Below, piece after piece: positions 1 to 9,694 of a DNA stretch of 50,557 bases. The DNA is from an uncultured Oscillospiraceae bacterium. GTDB taxonomy: Bacteria > Bacillota > Clostridia > Oscillospirales > Oscillospiraceae. Where the stretch lies: contig CANQKA010000003.1 of NCBI GenBank assembly GCA_947624395.1, forward strand, positions 1-50,557, written 5' to 3'. The translations under genes were made by a program, and so were the position numbers. Every line of letters begins with the position of its first letter. Positions within the stretch are counted from its first letter, which is position 1. The notes beneath the pieces were generated by a model. That model saw only the letters and a program-made list of their open reading frames with translations, was not told where the DNA came from and did not search any database.

Positions 1-140
1 TTAAAAAGGCTCGTAACGATGCCCATGATCATGGGCAGGACCACAAATGCGGCAAAAAAGCAAAGCGCCGGAAGCATGAACAGGTAAGCCGTCACTGTCT
101 CGCGCCGTTTGAGCGCGTGGCTTTGCCCGGATCCACTCAT
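1..140 (-). CDS. ABC sugar transporter permease, N-terminus only (runs off the left edge)
   Basis: Only the first 46 codons lie in the window. They read MSGSGQSHALKRRETV, then a hydrophobic segment TAYLFMLPALCFFAAF and the start of the next hydrophobic stretch. A charged cytoplasmic N-tail followed by AYLFMLPAL is typical of MalF/UgpA-type (binding-protein-dependent sugar) permeases. The ATG is preceded by a good GGGAGGAAC ribosome binding site. The gene lies directly downstream of the solute-binding protein gene on the same strand, separated by a perfect 13-bp hairpin, so the two probably form one operon with the hairpin lowering permease expression. The family call is firm; the transported sugar cannot be told from this fragment. 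Confidence 0.75.
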   Translation of the reverse strand, partial: MSGSGQSHALKRRETVTAYLFMLPALCFFAAFVVLPMIMGIVTSLF

Positions 141-171
141 ATAAGTTCCTCCCTTCTCTTTTGGGAACAAA

Positions 172-200
172 GCCGCCTCCCCGCCCAGCGGGGAGGCGGC
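172..200 (-). terminator. Intercistronic hairpin between binding-protein and permease genes
   Basis: A perfect 13-bp inverted repeat (GCCGCCTCCCCGC with its complement, 3-nt loop CCA). In the transcript direction it is followed by TTTGTTCCC, a poor U-tract. This suggests a partial terminator or mRNA-stabilising stem, a common device for making more binding protein than permease. Confidence 0.65.
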
Positions 201-249
201 CACTTATAATGGCATAACGCCCTGCGGCGGACGCCGCGTCAGTCCGGTT

Positions 250-3138
250 TTATCCGGCCATACCCTTGTTGGACGCTTCCACAGCCGCGTTGGCAAGCTC
301 GGTCACATCGCCGCCGTCGGTTATCCGCTGCAGCATGTCGAACCACTGCGCACGCATGTTCGCAAAGCCGTCCATCGTGTTGTAGTACGGACCGTACATC
401 TTCGTGAACTCAGCCAGCAGCTCCTTCTCCGCATCGTCCGGATACAGATTCCCCATGCTCGTCTTCACAGGGAACGCGCCAGTCCGCACAACGTTTTCCT
501 CGCTGTCGCAGATCCACTGGATGAACTCTTTCGCCGCCGCGGCTTTCGCCTCGTCTCCGTTGTCGAACACGCAGAAGCCATTCACCAGGTACTCCAGCTC
601 CGCCTTGCCGTCGTCAGACGGGAACGGCAGCGAGATCGGCGTAACGCCGTTCTCTTCCATCGTCGCCGCGTTGTTCCCCGCAGCAGACGTGCCCCAGCAC
701 AGCTCAAAGCTCGTCTGACCAGCCACAAACAGCTCGATGCTCTGCCCGCCGTTGTACTCAACGCCGTTGCCAAGCCAGCCCTTATCCAGCCATTCCTGCG
801 CCTTCTCCAGGCCCTTGATCATCTCCGGACTGTTGAACGTGTACTTCTCCATGTCCGCCACGCTGCCGCTGTACAGGTTCGCGATCAGCGCACGCGTGCC
901 CTGGTCGCCGCCCTGGCCGTTGCAGAACAGCACGCCGGGGTTATAACCGGCCTCGTACAGCGCTTCCAGCGCCTTCTCGAAGTTCTCCGTCGTCCAGGAG
1001 CGGTCCCCTTCCAGGTTCACATACTCCATCGCGCCGGATTCTTCCCACATCTCCTCGTTGATCGCCATGTAGAACGGCGACGCGGAAATCGGGAACATGT
1101 AATACGTCCCGTCGCCCTGGCAGCTGGTCAGAAGCGCGTCGTTGTCCACGTCCTTCACAAACTCGTCCGTGAACATGTCGTCCAGGGGCACCAGTTTGCC
1201 GTTCTTGCCGTACTCGATGATACGGCCCGGTGCGTCGAACAGCACGTCAGCAGCCGTGCCGCTCTCGATGGCCGTGGTGATCTTGTCGCTGGCCGTGGTG
1301 AAGTCGATGGTCTCCACGCGCACCGTGATCCCAGGATGGGTCTCGTTGAATTCTTCTACCAGCTTTTCCTCGTAAGTACCCGCAGGGTCGTCCGCGTCCT
1401 GGATGAACGTGGGCGGCGCCCACCACAGAAGCTCTACCGGCTCGTCGGTCTTCACTGGGCCGGGGGCTGTGACGGTCTTGGGATTTTTGTCCGCCTCTTT
1501 GCTGTCCTCGGCGGCCTCTTCGTCGGCAGCGGGTTCCTCTTCCTCGGGAGCTTCCTCAGCGGTCTCATCCTCGGGAGCCTCTTCCTCGTCCTCGCCCTCA
1601 AGGGCGGCCTCAGCGCCCGCGATCGTGGCCTCTACCAGGGCCTCGCCCGCGCCCTCGGCTACCTCGTTGTATTCCTCGATGATGCCGATCTCTTCGTTGG
1701 AGGCCTTCGTCGCCGCGTTGGCAAGCTCGGTCACATCGCCGCCGTCGGTTATCCGCTGCAGCATGTCGAACCACTGCGCACGCATGTTCGCAAAGCCGTC
1801 CATCGTGTTGTAGTACGGACCGTACATCTTCGTGAACTCAGCCAGCAGCTCCTTCTCCGCATCGTCCGGATACAGATTCCCCATGCTCGTCTTCACAGGG
1901 AACGCGCCAGTCCGCACAACGTTTTCCTCGCTGTCGCAGATCCACTGGATGAACTCTTTCGCCGCCGCGGCTTTCGCCTCGTCTCCGTTGTCGAACACGC
2001 AGAAGCCATTCACCAGGTACTCCAGCTCCGCCTTGCCGTCGTCAGACGGGAACGGCAGCGAGATCGGCGTAACGCCGTTCTCTTCCATCGTCGCCGCGTT
2101 GTTCCCCGCAGCAGACGTGCCCCAGCACAGCTCAAAGCTCGTCTGACCAGCCACAAACAGCTCGATGCTCTGCCCGCCGTTGTACTCAACGCCGTTGCCA
2201 AGCCAGCCCTTATCCAGCCATTCCTGCGCCTTCTCCAGGCCCTTGATCATCTCCGGACTGTTGAACGTGTACTTCTCCATGTCCGCCACGCTGCCGCTGT
2301 ACAGGTTCGCGATCAGCGCACGCGTGCCCTGGTCGCCGCCCTGGCCGTTGCAGAACAGCACGCCGGGGTTATAACCGGCCTCGTACAGCGCTTCCAGCGC
2401 CTTCTCGAAGTTCTCCGTCGTCCAGGAGCGGTCCCCTTCCAGGTTCACATACTCCATCGCGCCGGATTCTTCCCACATCTCCTCGTTGATCGCCATGTAG
2501 AACGGCGAGGCGGAGATCGGGAACATGTAATACGTCCCGTCGCCCTGGCAGCTCGTCAGGAGCGCGTCGTTGTCCACGTCCTTCACAAACTCGTCCGTGA
2601 ACATGTCGTCCAGGGGCACCAGTTTCCCGTTCTTGCCGTACTCGATGATACGGCCCGGCGCGTCGAACAGCACGTCAGCAGCCGTTCCGCTCTCGATGGC
2701 CGTGGTGATCTTGTCGCTTGCAGTGGTGAAGTCGATGGTCTCCACGCGCACCGTGATCCCCGGGTGGGTCTCGTTGAATTCCTCTACCAGCTTTTCCTCA
2801 TAAGTACCCGCAGGGTCGTCCGCGTCCTGAATGAACGTGGGCGGCGCCCACCACAAAAGCTCTACCGGCTCGTCGGTGGGTTCGGGTTCCTCGGTGGGAG
2901 CCTCGGTGGGGGCCTCGGTGGGCTCAGGTTCCTCAGTGGGAGCCTCGGTGGGAGCTTCCGTAGGCGCTTCCTCAGCCGTCTCCTCCTCGTCGGTGTCGCT
3001 CGCTTCCTCGACAGGAGCCTCTTCCTCGGTCTTGGGCTCTTCCGCAGGCTTCTCATCCGTCTTGTCGCCGCCGCAGGCAGCAAGGCTGAACACCATCGCA
3101 AGACAGAGGATGAACGCGAGCAGTTTCTTCAACTTCAT
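250..3138 (-). CDS. ABC sugar-type solute-binding lipoprotein with two tandem identical binding domains
   Basis: 962 residues, about twice the usual 400-450 of a family 1 (sugar) extracellular solute-binding protein. Residues 1-22 are a lipoprotein signal with lipobox LAAC (Cys22), so the mature protein should be lipid-anchored outside the membrane. Residues 23-90 are a Glu/Pro/Thr-rich stalk with repeated EAPT and EPEPT units. Binding domain 1 starts near residue 88 at TDEPVELLWWAPP and ends near 476 at DVTELANAA. An acidic linker of about 87 residues follows, then binding domain 2 with exactly the same amino-acid sequence and a short tail (VEASNKGMAG). The start has a strong AAGGAGG site and a near-consensus promoter upstream. 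The neighbouring permease and epimerase genes point to uptake of a sugar or amino sugar. The ligand is not identifiable. Confidence 0.9.
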   Translation of the reverse strand: MKLKKLLAFILCLAMVFSLAACGGDKTDEKPAEEPKTEEEAPVEEASDTDEEETAEEAPTEAPTEAPTEEPEPTEAPTEAPTEEPEPTDEPVELLWWAPPTFIQDADDPAGTYEEKLVEEFNETHPGITVRVETIDFTTASDKITTAIESGTAADVLFDAPGRIIEYGKNGKLVPLDDMFTDEFVKDVDNDALLTSCQGDGTYYMFPISASPFYMAINEEMWEESGAMEYVNLEGDRSWTTENFEKALEALYEAGYNPGVLFCNGQGGDQGTRALIANLYSGSVADMEKYTFNSPEMIKGLEKAQEWLDKGWLGNGVEYNGGQSIELFVAGQTSFELCWGTSAAGNNAATMEENGVTPISLPFPSDDGKAELEYLVNGFCVFDNGDEAKAAAAKEFIQWICDSEENVVRTGAFPVKTSMGNLYPDDAEKELLAEFTKMYGPYYNTMDGFANMRAQWFDMLQRITDGGDVTELANAATKASNEEIGIIEEYNEVAEGAGEALVEATIAGAEAALEGEDEEEAPEDETAEEAPEEEEPAADEEAAEDSKEADKNPKTVTAPGPVKTDEPVELLWWAPPTFIQDADDPAGTYEEKLVEEFNETHPGITVRVETIDFTTASDKITTAIESGTAADVLFDAPGRIIEYGKNGKLVPLDDMFTDEFVKDVDNDALLTSCQGDGTYYMFPISASPFYMAINEEMWEESGAMEYVNLEGDRSWTTENFEKALEALYEAGYNPGVLFCNGQGGDQGTRALIANLYSGSVADMEKYTFNSPEMIKGLEKAQEWLDKGWLGNGVEYNGGQSIELFVAGQTSFELCWGTSAAGNNAATMEENGVTPISLPFPSDDGKAELEYLVNGFCVFDNGDEAKAAAAKEFIQWICDSEENVVRTGAFPVKTSMGNLYPDDAEKELLAEFTKMYGPYYNTMDGFANMRAQWFDMLQRITDGGDVTELANAAVEASNKGMAG
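284..1449. repeat. Intragenic direct repeat, copy B (C-terminal binding domain)
   Basis: A 1166-bp direct repeat of 1712-2877 at an offset of 1428 bp. Positions 284-1080 show no mismatch to 1712-2508; about 15 mismatches fall in 1081-1449. All mismatches are silent, because the two encoded domains are identical in protein. Confidence 0.95.
1712..2877. repeat. Intragenic direct repeat, copy A (N-terminal binding domain)
   Basis: Partner of 284-1449. The intervening 1450-1711 encodes the acidic linker and has no second copy, so this is a true tandem duplication with a unique spacer and not a simple duplicated read. Confidence 0.95.
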
Positions 3139-3271: not shown

Positions 3272-4510
3272 TCACTTTTGGACCGGGTACGCCATATCTC
3301 CGCCGCCCAGAAGCTGGCCCAGCATCGTGTCGCACATGATAAGGCTCCGGGGCAGGTGGAACGGCCCTTTGAAGGTGGAGCCCTTGGTGGGCGGCATGGT
3401 GGGCAGGCCGTCCCGGCGCAGATACCCGTACCACTCGCCGTTGGCAGGGTCCGCGAAATGGGCTTTGCAGTAGTCCACATCTTTGCGGAACCAGTCCAGG
3501 TACTTCTCATCGCCCGTGTCCCGGTAGAGCATGAGAGAGGATATAAGTATCTCATTGTGGGGCCACCAGAGCTTCATGTCGTGCTCGTAGGCCTCGGGGG
3601 GCTTTTTCTGGCAGTCCAGGAAATAAAGCAGCCCGCCGTATTCCTCATCCCAGCCGGCCTCGATGGCCCAGTTGAAGATCTGCTCCGCGCCGTCGTGGAG
3701 CTTTTTGTCACCGGTCCTGTTGGCGTACTCCAGCAAAAACCAGACGCACTCGATGTCGTGGCCGGGGTTGACCTTGCGCCCGTCGGTGTACCAAAGCTCC
3801 GGGTCACCCTCCATGTCCACGCTCTCCAGGGTGCAGCGAAGCTCCGGCTTGACGTGATACTTGAATATCTCGCCGGCGCATATGGCGGCCCGCTCGTCGT
3901 ACAGCGCCGCCTGCTCCTGGTCCACCCGGCGCAGCACGGAGGTGATATTCAGATAGATCATGGGGTCGGCCAGCGCCCGGCCGGACCGGGTCTCGGGGAT
4001 GGTCTTGGGGCCCATACCCGTGGGGTCCGCGATGAGGCCCCGGTTCAGCTGCCAGATCATCTCATAGGCCCGACGGGCCCGCTCCAAATGCTCACGCTCG
4101 CCGGTGACGCCGTAATACTCCGCGTTGGCCAGAGCGTAAAACCCCTCGGAGAAGCAATACCGCCGCTGGCGCAGGGGCTTGCCCTCGGCGGTGACGGTGA
4201 AATACAGCCGTCCGCCGGCGTCATGGTTGACGCAATGGTCCTCCAAAAAGTCTATGCAGCTTTTGGCCGCTTCAAGCCACTGTTTTCTTGTCCCGTACAC
4301 GTGACACAGGTAAGAAAACGTCCAGCCGCACCGGCCCTGCATCCACACGCTCTTGTCGGTGGAGTAGATCTGACCCGTGCGGTCCAGGCAGGTGTACACC
4401 CCGCCGTGCTCCTTGTCCATGCCGTGGGCCAGCCAGAAATCCACGCAGGCGCGCAGCTCGCCCTGTATCCAGTCCCGGTAGGACTTCAACTCTTGCGTAT
4501 GGGTATCCAT
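3272..4510 (-). CDS. AGE-family (N-acylglucosamine 2-epimerase-like) isomerase
   Basis: 412 residues, the normal length for this cytoplasmic (alpha/alpha)6-barrel family, whose members interconvert GlcNAc/ManNAc or epimerise related sugars at C2. Family features visible are the N-terminal HGGVYTCLDRTG region, KSVWMQGRCGWTFS, EYGGLLYFLDCQ, and the C-terminal KGSTFKGPFHLPRSL motif with the conserved His. The ATG has an AAGGGAG site and a near-consensus promoter. It sits between a solute-binding protein gene and a divergent kinase-like gene, so it probably processes the imported sugar, for instance as a step in amino-sugar or sialic-acid breakdown. Other AGE members act on mannose or cellobiose, so the exact substrate is uncertain. 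Confidence 0.85.
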   Translation of the reverse strand: MDTHTQELKSYRDWIQGELRACVDFWLAHGMDKEHGGVYTCLDRTGQIYSTDKSVWMQGRCGWTFSYLCHVYGTRKQWLEAAKSCIDFLEDHCVNHDAGGRLYFTVTAEGKPLRQRRYCFSEGFYALANAEYYGVTGEREHLERARRAYEMIWQLNRGLIADPTGMGPKTIPETRSGRALADPMIYLNITSVLRRVDQEQAALYDERAAICAGEIFKYHVKPELRCTLESVDMEGDPELWYTDGRKVNPGHDIECVWFLLEYANRTGDKKLHDGAEQIFNWAIEAGWDEEYGGLLYFLDCQKKPPEAYEHDMKLWWPHNEILISSLMLYRDTGDEKYLDWFRKDVDYCKAHFADPANGEWYGYLRRDGLPTMPPTKGSTFKGPFHLPRSLIMCDTMLGQLLGGGDMAYPVQK

Positions 4511-4708: not shown

Positions 4709-6094
4709 ATGCGCCATTTGGGTATTGAAGTATCCGTCAAAAACGTCCCCTCCCTGGACCCGGGATTTCTGCCCCTGAACCGCTTCAACGAGGCGTTTCT
4801 CAAGACAGCGAAAGAACCCTTTGACATCGCCGTGGAACGGGCCAGCGGCCAGATGGCCGTTTACAAGACCTTTGTCCACGGAACGGCGGACATGTTTGAC
4901 GCGGACGTGTACTACATCGAGCGGACCGTGAAGACACTGCTTTGGATGAAAGGCGGCTTCCGGGTGTACCTGGCGGGCAATGAGGCGGTCTGCGCCGCCA
5001 TTGAGAAGATTTATTCCGCCGACGGCCAGCAGCAGTTCGACCACCACTTTATGGCCCACGTATTCGAGCACCCCTTCGAGGTGGTGCGCGTGGATAAGGT
5101 GCCCGACGCCAAGGACAGCCCCCAGCGCATCGGCGGGCACATGGACGGCTGCCGCATCGGCTTTGACGCCGGCGGGTCCGACCGTAAAGTTTCCGCCGTC
5201 GTCAACGGGGAGAGCGTGTATTCCGAGGAAGTGGTCTGGTACCCCAAGATCACCGCCGACCCGGACTATCACTATGAGGGCATCGTGTCCGCCTTAAAAT
5301 CCGCCGCGGCCCATATGCCCCGTGTGGACGCGGTGGGCGTATCCTCCGCCGGTATCTACATCAATAACCGCACCATGCGGGCCAGCCTGTTTTTGCAGGT
5401 GCCCGACGATTTGTTCGACGCCAAGGTCAAGGACATCTACATCCGGGCCATCACGGACACCTTCGGCGACATACCCTACGCGGTCATCAACGACGGCGAC
5501 GTGTCGGCTCTGGCGGGCATGATGAGCCTGGGCGAGCCCAACGTGCTGGGCATCGCCATGGGCACCAGCGAGGCCGTGGGCTATGTGGACGCCGAGGGGT
5601 GCATCACCGGCTGGCTCAACGAGCTTGCTTTCGTGCCCGTGGACGCAAACCCCGGATCCATGCGGGACGAGTGGAGCGGCGACATCGGCTGCGGCGTCAA
5701 GTACTTCTCCCAGGACGCGGTCATCAAGCTGGCCCCCGCCGCCGGTATCGAGCTGGACGAGAGCCTGTCGCCCGCCCAGAAGCTGAAGGCCGTCCAGGCC
5801 CTCATGGAGGCGGACGATGAGCGGGCCGCGAAAATTTACGACTCCATCGGCGTGTACCTGGCCCACGCGCTGGCCTATTACTACGACCTCTATAAATTCC
5901 GCCACGTGCTGCTGCTGGGCCGGGTCATGTCCGGCAAGGGCGGCGACCTGATTTTGGCCCGGTGCAAGGCCGTGTTGGCCGACGAGTACCCCGCCGTGAG
6001 CGAGGCCATCCGCCCCGCTCTGCCCGACGAGAAGTTCCGCCGGGTAGGCCAGTCCGCCGCGGCCGCCAGTCTGCCGGCGTTGAAAGAGGGCTGA
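4709..6094 (+). CDS. ROK/ASKHA-superfamily sugar-kinase-like protein
   Basis: 461 residues, longer than a typical ROK kinase (about 300) because of an N-terminal extension of some 140 residues. The ASKHA actin-like fold is suggested by phosphate-1 loop GFDAGGSDRKVSAVV (about 149-163), NDGDVSALAG (about 259-268) and the phosphate-2-like GIAMGTSEAVGYVD. The cysteine-rich zinc motif of classical ROK kinases and repressors (CxCGxxGC) is absent. The start has an AAGGAGG site. It lies 2 bp before an SGNH hydrolase gene and divergent from an epimerase gene, so phosphorylation of a sugar released or imported at this locus is the likely role. A sensor function without catalysis cannot be excluded. Confidence 0.6.
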   Translation: MRHLGIEVSVKNVPSLDPGFLPLNRFNEAFLKTAKEPFDIAVERASGQMAVYKTFVHGTADMFDADVYYIERTVKTLLWMKGGFRVYLAGNEAVCAAIEKIYSADGQQQFDHHFMAHVFEHPFEVVRVDKVPDAKDSPQRIGGHMDGCRIGFDAGGSDRKVSAVVNGESVYSEEVVWYPKITADPDYHYEGIVSALKSAAAHMPRVDAVGVSSAGIYINNRTMRASLFLQVPDDLFDAKVKDIYIRAITDTFGDIPYAVINDGDVSALAGMMSLGEPNVLGIAMGTSEAVGYVDAEGCITGWLNELAFVPVDANPGSMRDEWSGDIGCGVKYFSQDAVIKLAPAAGIELDESLSPAQKLKAVQALMEADDERAAKIYDSIGVYLAHALAYYYDLYKFRHVLLLGRVMSGKGGDLILARCKAVLADEYPAVSEAIRPALPDEKFRRVGQSAAAASLPALKEG

Positions 6095-6096
6095 AC

Positions 6097-6735
6097 ATGA
6101 AAAAACACATCGTCTGCTTCGGGGACTCCAACACCCACGGGTACTGCGCCGACCCCAACGACACCGCCGACGGCGGCAATCGCTTCAACGAGGACGAGCG
6201 CTGGCCCTGCGTGCTGCAAAAGCTGCTGGGGGACGAATATCTCGTCCTGGAGGAAGGCCTTGGCGGCCGGACCACGGTCTTTGACGACCCCATCCACGGG
6301 GACCTGGCCGGCACCGACTACATAACCCCCTGCCTTCTCAGCCACGAGCCGGTGGACCTGCTCATCATCATGCTTGGCACCAACGACTCCAAGGAGCGCT
6401 TCGGCTGCACCGCCGCCGCCATCGGCGTGGCCATGCAGCGGCTGGTCCGTCAGGCGCAAAATACCCTGTGCTGGGGCGCTCACGGGCCCAACGTGCTGGT
6501 CGTGGCTCCGCCGCCCATCGGGGAGGGCTTTTTCGACCCGGCCATGGGCGAGGGCTGCCGGGAGCGGACATTGGGGATGGCCGCCGCGTTCAAGGACGCC
6601 GCCGCCCTCACCGGCGCCCACTTCGCCGACGCCGTTGACTGTGAGTTCAACCCCATCGACCACATGCACCTGACACGGCAAGGCCACAGCCAGCTTGCCC
6701 ACCTGCTGGCGGAACTTGTGCCCACGCTGGTGTAA
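6097..6735 (+). CDS. SGNH/GDSL-family hydrolase
   Basis: 212 residues. All four SGNH blocks are visible: Ser in CFGDSNTHGY (residues 7-16), Gly in GLGGRTTVFDD, Asn in LGTNDSKERFG, and the Asp/His pair in DHMHLTRQGH. No signal peptide is seen, so it is probably cytoplasmic, acting as an esterase such as a sugar O-acetyl esterase. The start chosen is the ATG 2 bp after the stop of the kinase-like gene; the reading frame extends further upstream inside that gene, but the GDS block would then lie far from the N-terminus. Translational coupling to the kinase-like gene is likely. The substrate is unknown; deacetylation of an imported sugar would fit the locus. Confidence 0.85.
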   Translation: MKKHIVCFGDSNTHGYCADPNDTADGGNRFNEDERWPCVLQKLLGDEYLVLEEGLGGRTTVFDDPIHGDLAGTDYITPCLLSHEPVDLLIIMLGTNDSKERFGCTAAAIGVAMQRLVRQAQNTLCWGAHGPNVLVVAPPPIGEGFFDPAMGEGCRERTLGMAAAFKDAAALTGAHFADAVDCEFNPIDHMHLTRQGHSQLAHLLAELVPTLV

Positions 6736-6827: not shown

Positions 6828-7106
6828 TTACTTCCTGAAAATATCGGAATGTGAGCCTGTGTCCACAAGGGTCAAGGTCATGACATCGTTTTCGATGAGA
6901 TAGACCAGCAACCAATCCGGCTTGATATGGCATTCCCGAAAACCGGCAAAACTACCGGACAAACCGTGATCCCGATACTTTTCGTCGAGCCGCTTACCCT
7001 GACGCAGCAGTTCGACTACCTCATCCAGCAAAGAGAGGTCAAGGCCACGCCTCTTCATTTGTTTATAACTTTTCTTATAAATCGTGGTGAATTTTACCTG
7101 GTACAT
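6828..7106 (-). CDS. YafQ-family (RelE superfamily) type II toxin
   Basis: 92 residues. The signature DHGLSGSFAGFRECHIKPDW followed by LLVY is characteristic of YafQ-type mRNA interferases, which cut mRNA in the ribosome; the His residues in this stretch and near the C-terminus (GSHSDIF) fit the catalytic set. Its ATG overlaps the antitoxin stop by one base (TGATG), the usual antitoxin-toxin coupling. Function is inferred from the family. Confidence 0.88.
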   Translation of the reverse strand: MYQVKFTTIYKKSYKQMKRRGLDLSLLDEVVELLRQGKRLDEKYRDHGLSGSFAGFRECHIKPDWLLVYLIENDVMTLTLVDTGSHSDIFRK

Positions 7107-7378
7107 CAGTCGTTAAGCGCCGCTTTCAACTCTTCCATACTTTTGTATCCCTTGACGTCAGGGTCGCGGGATATTCTTCTGGCCTCCGCCATCGCACTAA
7201 GTGTCCTGTCGCTGTATTGCGGAACTTCCACGGCAAAAGGCAATCCGCCGCGCAGGACGCACTGGTGCAGAAACAGATTCACCGCGCCGGACATATCCAA
7301 GCCGAGATCGGCAAAAAGAGCCGTTGCTTCACGCTTTATATCCGCGTCGATACGGACCTGAGTAGGAGTTGTAGCCAT
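7106..7378 (-). CDS. RelB/DinJ-family type II antitoxin
   Basis: 90 residues with an N-terminal ribbon-helix-helix region (TPTQVRIDADIKREATALFADLGLDM) and the DinJ-type continuation SGAVNLFLHQCVLRGGLPF. The C-terminal segment SMEELKAAL would bind the toxin. The start is the ATG at 7378, preceded by AAAGGAGATGATCAC; an in-frame start 8 codons upstream has no better site. It is the first gene of a two-gene operon with the YafQ-like toxin and is expected to repress its own consensus promoter. Confidence 0.88.
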   Translation of the reverse strand: MATTPTQVRIDADIKREATALFADLGLDMSGAVNLFLHQCVLRGGLPFAVEVPQYSDRTLSAMAEARRISRDPDVKGYKSMEELKAALND

Positions 7379-7406
7379 GTGATCATCTCCTTTCAACCAC
7401 ACCCAT

Positions 7407-8235: not shown

Positions 8236-8265
8236 CAGAGAAAGCCAGGAGGACGGAGAGGCGCG

Positions 8266-9042
8266 ATGGAAGAGAAGAAGACAAGCTTTGCATACAAGAT
8301 CATACGGCGGCTGGTGCTGCTGTTTTACCCCAAAACGGCGGTGTCCGGGGCGGAGAACCTGCCGGACGGACCATGTATCGCGGTGGGCAACCACACCCAG
8401 ATGAACGGCCCCATCGTGGGGGAGCTGTATTATCCGGGGCCACATTATATCTGGTGCGCCGCCCAGATGATGGACCGGAAGGAGGTCCCCGCCTATGCCT
8501 ATCAGGACTTCTGGTCCGGCAAGCCGAAATACATCCGCTGGTACTATAAGCTGGCAAGCTACCTGATCGCGCCGCTGGCCCAGTGCATCTTCACCAACGC
8601 CCACACTATCCCGGTATACCACGACACCCGCCTGCTGACCACCTTCCGCCTGACCATCCAGCGGCTGCAGGAGGGGGCCAGCGTGGTCATCTTCCCGGAG
8701 CACGACAGGAAGTACAACAACATCCTCTATGAATTTCAGGACCGGTTCGTGGACGTGGCACGGCTCTATTACAAAAAGACAGGCCAGGCGATCCCATTTG
8801 TGCCCATGTACATAGCCCCCGCGCTGCGCACGGTCTATCTGGGCAAGCCGGTCATATTTGACCCGGCGGCGCCTATCGCAAAGGAGCGGGAGCGTATCTG
8901 CGCCTATCTGCGGGACGAGATCACGGCCATCGCCGCCGCCCTGCCGGAGCACACCGTGGTGCCGTACCGGAACGTCCCCAGGCGGCTGTATCCCAAAAAT
9001 AAGCCCGTCGAGGTCTACGCCCATGAAGAAGAAACCCGTTGA
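8266..9042 (+). CDS. Lysophospholipid acyltransferase (PlsC/LPLAT)-like protein
   Basis: 258 residues. An N-terminal hydrophobic stretch (RRLVLLFYP) precedes the LPLAT core: GNHTQMNG stands where the catalytic NHxSxxD box is expected, VVIFPEHDR resembles motif III (FPEGxR), and IPFVPMYIAPAL resembles motif IV. The Asp of the HX4D dyad is not present at its expected place (Gly there, Asn just before), so activity or substrate may differ. The ATG at 8266 was chosen over an in-frame upstream start because GGAGAGG lies 5 bp before it and the promoter motif lies just upstream. It overlaps the following PAP2-like gene by 20 bp, which suggests paired roles in membrane lipid metabolism. Confidence 0.75.
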   Translation: MEEKKTSFAYKIIRRLVLLFYPKTAVSGAENLPDGPCIAVGNHTQMNGPIVGELYYPGPHYIWCAAQMMDRKEVPAYAYQDFWSGKPKYIRWYYKLASYLIAPLAQCIFTNAHTIPVYHDTRLLTTFRLTIQRLQEGASVVIFPEHDRKYNNILYEFQDRFVDVARLYYKKTGQAIPFVPMYIAPALRTVYLGKPVIFDPAAPIAKERERICAYLRDEITAIAAALPEHTVVPYRNVPRRLYPKNKPVEVYAHEEETR

Positions 9043-9694
9043 TTACAGCGGCTTTCGCCTGTCAAGGCTGAACGAGCCGCGATTTGCCCACGCAAAGCTC
9101 CTGGCGGGGTGGCTGGGGTATTTCGCGTTGTATCTGCTGACGGAAAACCTGATACCGGCGGAGAAGTGCCACCCGGTCCACTGCTTTTTGGACGACATCA
9201 TCCCGTTCAACGAGTGGTTTCTGCTGTTTTACGTGAGCTGGTACCTGCTGGTGTTCGGCTCGCTGGCCTACACGTTTTTCTACGACGTGGACCGGTTTCG
9301 CCAGGTGCAGACCTACATCATCCTGACCCAGATCATCGCCATGGCGGCCTATATCCTCTGGCCCACCCGGCAGGACCTGCGGCCGGAGGTGTTCGACCGG
9401 GACAATATCCTCACCCGGCTCATGGGTCTTATCTACGCCTTCGACACCAATACGGGCGTGTGCCCGTCCCTGCACGTGGGGTACTCCCTGGGCATTTTGT
9501 CAGTGTTTTTGAAGGACAAAGACCTCTCCGCTGTCCGGAAAGGTCTTTTGACGGTGTATGTGCTGGGCATATGCGCGTCCGTGTGCTTCGTCAAGCAGCA
9601 CTCCGCCGTGGACGTGCTGGCGGCGCTGCCCATGTGCGCCGTGGCGGAATACCTGGTGTTCAAAAAAGAGCTTTGGAAAAAGTGGGCCCGTTAG
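9023..9694 (+). CDS. PAP2-superfamily membrane phosphatase-like protein
   Basis: 223 residues with about six hydrophobic segments. The PAP2 signatures CPSLHVGYSLG and KQHSAVDVLAALP carry the two catalytic His and the Asp. The first PAP2 motif (KxxxxxxRP) is not clear, as in the PAP2_3/inositol-phosphorylceramide-synthase-like branch. The ATG at 9023 lies inside the end of the acyltransferase gene, so translation is probably coupled. Likely role: dephosphorylation or head-group transfer on a lipid phosphate or polyprenyl phosphate at the membrane. Its stop codon overlaps the stop of the convergent ABC gene (TTAG). Confidence 0.78.
   Translation: MKKKPVDYSGFRLSRLNEPRFAHAKLLAGWLGYFALYLLTENLIPAEKCHPVHCFLDDIIPFNEWFLLFYVSWYLLVFGSLAYTFFYDVDRFRQVQTYIILTQIIAMAAYILWPTRQDLRPEVFDRDNILTRLMGLIYAFDTNTGVCPSLHVGYSLGILSVFLKDKDLSAVRKGLLTVYVLGICASVCFVKQHSAVDVLAALPMCAVAEYLVFKKELWKKWAR

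Follow-up and report, generated by a model that had tools for sequence, protein, structure and literature searches.

A lipoprotein with two identical tandem solute-binding domains, probably homogenised within the gene, in one genus of Oscillospiraceae

Introduction

The receptors of ABC importers are usually single lipoproteins. A gene located at positions 250 to 3138 on the minus strand of the window (the whole 50,557-nt stretch of an uncultured Oscillospiraceae bacterium analysed here) raises the question of how one lipid-anchored chain comes to carry two binding domains of the same sequence, what keeps them the same, and what two equal receptors could offer a single importer. A lineage in which recombination restores identical twins would provide a natural experiment on multiple receptors per importer, whether the gain lies in local concentration, wall reach or cooperation between domains. 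It would also constitute an unusual case of concerted evolution within a bacterial gene having just two 400-residue repeats, and it warns that such genes may go unseen or be broken in genomes assembled from short reads.

Architecture of the tandem gene

The gene begins with an ATG codon and encodes a solute-binding lipoprotein of 962 residues. Residues 1–22 (3073–3138, minus strand, as for all parts of the gene) correspond to a signal peptide and lipobox, LAAC within FSLAAC, of which Cys22 is presumably the lipidated residue according to the motif rule. A stalk rich in Glu, Pro and Thr follows (residues 23–87, 2878–3072), then a first binding domain, D1 (residues 88–476, 1711–2877), an acidic linker of 87 residues (477–563, 1450–1710) and a second binding domain, D2 (residues 564–952, 283–1449). 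Asp and Glu together account for 42% of residues 23–86, 38% of residues 486–562 and 18% of residues 87–485. D1 and D2 are identical at 389 of 389 residues. The Pfam family SBP_bac_1 (PF01547) was matched in two stretches (E value of 4.3e-57; 194.9 bits for the whole protein with a cut-off of 26), and in profile searches of the same genome each half alone scored above the SBP_bac_1/SBP_bac_8 Pfam cut-off, which places both halves in the family. Sequence and Pfam thus confirm the original prediction of a solute-binding lipoprotein with a single lipid anchor and two identical 389-residue domains separated by an acidic linker of about 87 residues.

Chance identity of D1 and D2 is out of the question. 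At the DNA level the two blocks of 389 codons differ at 16 sites, all of which are synonymous, indicating that the repeat is not simply one stretch doubled by the assembler. Fifteen of these differences fall within nucleotides 282–629 of the gene and the last one at nucleotide 1427, the final base of the block. The 797 nt lying between them are without difference (1712–2508 in D1 and 284–1080 in D2) and, given the clustering of differences described below, form a candidate conversion tract.

The draft genome that contains the gene (2.06 Mb in 131 contigs, 82.7% complete) has no second doublet among its eight SBP_bac_1 matches, one of which is below the cut-off, and its nine SBP_bac_8 matches; two matches on one chain were found only here. 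A 1035-residue frame on contig C25 of genome G000 (L050, 1–2694) was considered as a doublet and rejected, as it carries one solute-binding domain, in its C-terminal half, and adjoins a permease gene. Two weak matches restricted to the stalk were likewise set aside by eye as other surface proteins, one with repeated segments (contig C56), the other combining a C-terminal membrane segment with a long stretch rich in Pro and Thr (contig C81). An AlphaFold model of the single domain (five sequences) was poor, with a mean pLDDT of 58, and gives no support either way.

Distribution of one- and two-domain forms

We searched 149 related genomes, including that of the window, and found a match in 35. 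Fourteen longer stretches were read, consisting of 11 from members of the genus with long frames, one with a genus member's single-domain paralogue, and two outside the genus but within the family. Together with the window they contain ten complete two-domain genes, six with domains of one type (A; the window and L033–L037) and four with domains of another type (B; L038–L041), as well as three single-domain genes (L044–L046) and two B genes (L042 and L043) cut by the contig end within the second copy, of which 37 and 61 residues, matching the start of the first copy, are left. Counting these two truncated genes, at least 12 genomes of this one genus carry the doublet. Apparent three-domain frames of 1506 and 1606 residues were discarded because the real ORFs have 1007 and 1073 residues and two domains.

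A locus marked by a kinase gene was detected in 19 of 35 genomes of the genus. Ten of the 19 have a complete doublet at this locus and two a cut doublet, whereas in G030 and G026 the locus carries just one B-like domain, which is complete. The contig ends within the first domain in G004 and G019, and in the stalk or at its end in G033 and G013. In G015 the contig carries NagB and NagA beside the kinase, and the queries used found no binding protein there. A complete gene with one domain also lies near the epimerase gene in G016, a genome that gave no kinase match.

Beyond the genus, no doublet was found at the family level among 76 matching genomes (400 searched, E value ≤1e-60, two matches required on one frame) or at the order level among 15 matching genomes (394 searched, E value ≤1e-60); the two lists have nine genomes in common, were obtained with different queries and include a few matches at contig ends. 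Homologues outside the genus have one domain each among the best 80 of 203 relatives. A scan of GTDB r220 gave five doublets and 73 singles among the 78 loci kept. Since it relied on A-type patterns and on the best 80 of 203 relatives, B doublets are not expected in it. All five doublets are 'Lapin' MAGs, which correspond to G012, G011, G010, G002 and G025 and which we read, from the isolate name, as originating from rabbit gut.

The expectation that single-domain relatives exist elsewhere was borne out, as none of the matches outside the genus in the genomes searched is a doublet and singles also occur at the locus itself. Comparison of close relatives, as originally proposed, recovered both forms, the ten complete and two cut doublets all being in this genus.

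Genetic context and predicted ligand

The contig starts at window base 1, within the permease gene that follows the doublet. What is left of this gene, importer permease 1 (3–203, minus strand), encodes the first 67 residues, 99% identical to the permease of L033, and its assignment rests on the Pfam match (BPD_transp_1) of the L034 orthologue. The genes farther downstream in the window genome lie beyond the contig and are taken from L033. Directly upstream of the doublet is a gene of the N-acylglucosamine 2-epimerase family (3272–4510, minus strand; profile match), followed by a divergent ROK-like sugar kinase gene (4709–6094, plus strand) and by a GDSL/SGNH hydrolase gene conserved at the locus (6097–6735, plus strand; Pfam match in the L034 orthologue). 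The kinase-like protein has 461 residues, about 145 of which precede a ROK-like part that scores weakly, under the Pfam cut-off, and it has no NCBIfam match. Between the hydrolase gene and a GNAT gene, positions 6828–7402 (minus strand) encode a YafQ-type toxin and a RelB-type antitoxin (Pfam YafQ_toxin, 8.8e-33; RelB, 1.9e-11).

A and B doublets share the gene order hydrolase, kinase, epimerase, doublet, permease 1, permease 2, then NagB and NagA, the permease pair being present downstream of the doublet in L033–L041 and as the permease 1 fragment in the window. An ATPase gene comes next in L033, L037, L038, L039 and L041; none was found downstream in L034–L036. Eight doublet loci could be read as far as NagB; a lyase of the DHDPS family, which we read as NanA-like, separates permease 2 from NagB in L037 and L041 and is absent from this interval in L033, L034, L035, L036, L038 and L039. 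In the single-domain relative L060, permease 2 (8245–9309) is matched as two pieces with a gap.

The closest solved relative of the domain is PDB 9rsi with its variants, a single-domain sugar ABC transporter binding protein (E value of 1.2e-130). Four of its five variants were compared in alignments and differ at the residues matching F50, R76, Q183 and R366; we infer that these variants were made to probe ligand binding. Each of the 25 domains compared has R76, Q183 and R366, the putative ligand residues, and F50 is Phe in type A and Tyr in type B. Many of the listed matches are streptococcal homologues with 52–55% identity to the domain. Homology to 9rsi, the operon and the streptococcal relatives together suggest that the ligand is perhaps a sialic acid. 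Genes of the epimerase, kinase, NagB and NagA families belong to amino-sugar metabolism in general, and those of the operon would serve other amino sugars as well. Sialic-acid ABC importers include, in the portion of a review available to us, the families SAT2/ST7 (SatXYZ) and SAT3/ST6 (SatEFG, found in streptococci) (PMC10017367), and the accessible parts of that review and of a second source describe SatX of Ruminococcus gnavus (SAT2/ST7) and SAT3/ST6 SatEFG as sialic-acid importer receptors of gut and oral bacteria (PMC10017367, PMC10955332). An anhydro-sialic acid oxidoreductase marks SAT2. Receptors of the SatX and SatEFG type have a single domain, whereas the doublet carries two, and its putative link to a sialic acid comes from operon context and homology.

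Concerted evolution of the twin domains

In all ten complete tandem genes, D1 and D2 are 98.0–99.8% identical in protein and 95.3–99.7% in DNA, whereas domains of different species share 88–99.8% identity within type A, 66–98.5% within type B and 33–37% between the two types. Synonymous divergence (dS) ranges from 0.011 to 0.21 between D1 and D2 and from 0.13 to 0.69 between species for domains of the same type; in nine genes of ten the former is below the latter. Trees of trimmed codon sequences gave a concordant picture, the twins of one gene being sisters in nine of ten cases with ultrafast bootstrap values of 94–100. The exception is L036 (D1–D2 dS of 0.21), whose D2 falls beside the L034 pair and is closer to L034 than to the D1 of the same gene.

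The linkers behave otherwise. Within close sets they are 94% (window/L033), 96% (L034/L036), 86% (L034/L035), 85% (L035/L036) and 91% (L039/L040) identical, with z scores of 15–30 relative to codon shuffles (23–30 for window/L033, L034/L036 and L039/L040). They are thus orthologous, and within these sets the duplication is older than the species splits. Between distant A-type sets the linkers align poorly (z scores of −1 to 4), which makes a single duplication behind all A genes no more than a possibility.

The four domains of the window and L033 form an instructive quartet, in which 37 sites pair each gene with itself, twin with twin, another 16, of which 15 lie at the very ends, pair domains of the same slot, and two cross. 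In these sequences, homogenisation is visible in the DNA of the domain bodies. The slot-specific ends nevertheless raise slot-matched protein identity (99–100%) above that of the twins (98%). In all six A genes D2 ends with GMAG, as does the single-domain L060, and D1 ends otherwise. The place of the longest identical tract between twins also varies by gene (codons 125–389 in the window, 1–239 in L037, 1–381 in L038 and 111–408 in L041). Twin differences are clustered beyond random placement on variable codons in all nine testable genes (P = 0.035 in L035 and ≤0.0006 in the others), L040 having no core difference. Summed over the ten genes, core differences between twins amount to 107 synonymous and 7 nonsynonymous changes (P = 2e-59 relative to 23% synonymous expected), an excess which argues that neither domain is decaying. 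Sister twins, orthologous linkers and clustered differences together point to concerted evolution, for which gene conversion between the two halves of the gene is the simplest mechanism. Unequal exchange, through repeat expansion and contraction, could contribute, as is suggested by the segments preceding the two slots of L038, which to the eye look swapped.

On the sequences compared, the doublet is not a young one-off. The original prediction had counted a single copy, or relatives whose two domains are diverged and old, against itself; this pair of outcomes was incomplete, as the relatives display a third, in which the doublet has sufficient age for several species to have it in common and yet its domains are not diverged, being homogenised gene by gene.

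Origin and function of the doublet

Our preferred reading, to which we assign a probability of roughly 0.72, is that the gene encodes the receptor of a sugar-type ABC importer, built as anchor, stalk, domain, linker and identical domain, whose halves are homogenised by intragenic conversion to provide two equal receptors. The sequence shows a lipid anchor that holds an acidic, probably disordered stalk, then D1, the acidic linker and the identical D2; in this model, gene conversion, or repeat expansion and contraction, between the two domain-coding halves would maintain their identity. Both domains would load the same ligand and dock by turns on one permease pair, the tether keeping both near the permease and the outer one possibly reaching into the cell wall. 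By analogy with GlnPQ and OpuA, discussed below, such an arrangement most likely doubles the receptors per anchor near one permease pair, and cooperation between the twins is possible. The earlier proposal that doubled identical domains would raise the local receptor concentration with specificity unchanged fits the conservation of the putative ligand residues in both copies; from their sequence, both domains look functional.

The alternative that survives best, although we consider it improbable, is that the second domain would act as a spacer or wall-reaching part and that its identity would be a benefit-free by-product of conversion, a process that between long direct repeats requires no selection. 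The doublet has however been kept in at least 12 genomes even though deletion between direct repeats should be easy, and the putative ligand residues are retained in both copies.

Somewhat less probable still is a recent independent duplication in each lineage, in which single genes would have doubled many times and twins would be alike because they are young. Single-domain relatives at the locus (L139 and L140, and L141 without a kinase match) would be suitable starting points, L060, the closest A-type single, ends exactly like D2, and the poor alignment of distant A-type linkers is also in keeping with repeated doubling. In window and L033, in L034, L035 and L036, and in L039 and L040, however, the linkers are orthologous and yet the domain bodies group by gene (L036 excepted), and the slot-specific ends of window and L033 are orthologous too. 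Moreover, a simple young duplication predicts neither clustered differences nor long identical tracts placed differently in each gene. Independent doubling is thus disfavoured inside these three sets, whereas it may apply between them and between the A and B types.

That the twins result from assembly, by a repeat in a metagenome graph walked twice or by the joining of strain variants, appears very unlikely, even though all the doublets lie in draft assemblies, MAGs of one project with SPAdes-style contig names supplying at least five of the records, and contigs end inside the gene or at the stalk in 6 of the 19 kinase genomes (G004, G007, G008, G013, G019 and G033). In 12 of 12 genes the end of one domain runs through an in-frame linker into the start of the next, and our judgement of the twin architecture rests on this continuity; in addition, twins differ at synonymous sites, and two domain types are doubled in different genomes. 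The contig breaks of L042 and L043 early in the second copy are what a true repeat would be expected to cause in short-read assembly. Where repeats differ at isolated sites, short-read assembly can collapse these differences, and the exact identity of the twins may therefore be overstated.

Least probable of all, purifying selection alone, without conversion, would account for the predominance of synonymous core differences, but selection on the protein leaves synonymous differences in place, and these are both clustered and, in nine of ten genes, fewer between twins than between species as measured by dS.

Comparison with known systems

Tandem substrate-binding domains serving one ABC importer are described for GlnPQ of Lactococcus lactis, where, according to the part of the source available, the domains differ in specificity, their coupling is without effect on ligand binding, and linker length affects transport (PMC8025302). 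The doublet resembles this system in having two binding domains in tandem on one chain for one importer. It differs in that the domains of GlnPQ are joined to the transmembrane domain and have different specificities, whereas the doublet is a separate lipoprotein with permeases encoded by other genes, and its domains are identical over 389 residues across an 87-residue acidic linker. OpuA has two binding domains per transporter, proposed in the accessible text to interact and deliver cooperatively (PMC11065425); these are linked to two transmembrane domains, whereas here both are on one lipid-anchored chain. Intragenic repeats homogenised between distinct flanking ends are reported for spider silk genes, as far as the available excerpt goes (PMC3933166), which are eukaryotic structural repeats rather than two 400-residue bacterial receptor domains. 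Among the open-access literature matches listed, none described a lipoprotein with two identical binding domains; GlnPQ and OpuA surfaced in this search, and PMC6739813 was rejected as a precedent because the "two SBP domains" in the text available are parts of one protein.

Exchange of the receptor and permease block

Comparison of the A-type locus L033 with the B-type locus L038 revealed 92% DNA identity in a stretch that runs from the epimerase gene to within the stalk, and 90% in a second stretch that starts inside permease 2 and extends past the ATPase gene, whereas the middle, roughly 3.9 kb, retains only fragments of 71–75% identity. The permeases of the two types are 57–67% alike. In the window, leader and stalk (2878–3138, minus strand) are 92–93% identical in DNA to those of L038 (from 10261) while the binding domains are about 36% alike. 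At the sequence level, a receptor–permease block is thus shown to have been exchanged between A and B types at one locus. No mixed A/B doublet was found among the 12 tandems read, two of which include only the start of the second copy.

Homology between A and B linkers was detected in 10 of the 12 pairs that involve L041 or L043 (z scores of 3–8), the two pairs with L037 having z scores of about 0–1; the other 24 A–B pairs have little homology (z scores of −2 to 5). These linkers suggest a single origin of the stalk and linker scaffold for both types. More speculatively, the scaffold may offer two slots that require the same domain twice, the type being swapped together with the permeases and conversion re-equalising the slots, under selection for paired identical receptors through cooperative docking or avidity; we regard this extension as tentative.

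Inspection by eye of the segments around the domains disclosed several recurrent features. A helix-like motif (approximately AVDELAEEAGEALVxAAIxAAExAL) occurs in the linkers of the window, L033–L038, L041 and L043 and in the stalks of L039 and L040, and a TxPGP-like motif is seen in several linkers or stalks. In L038, the sequences preceding slots 1 and 2 look exchanged relative to those of L039 and L040.
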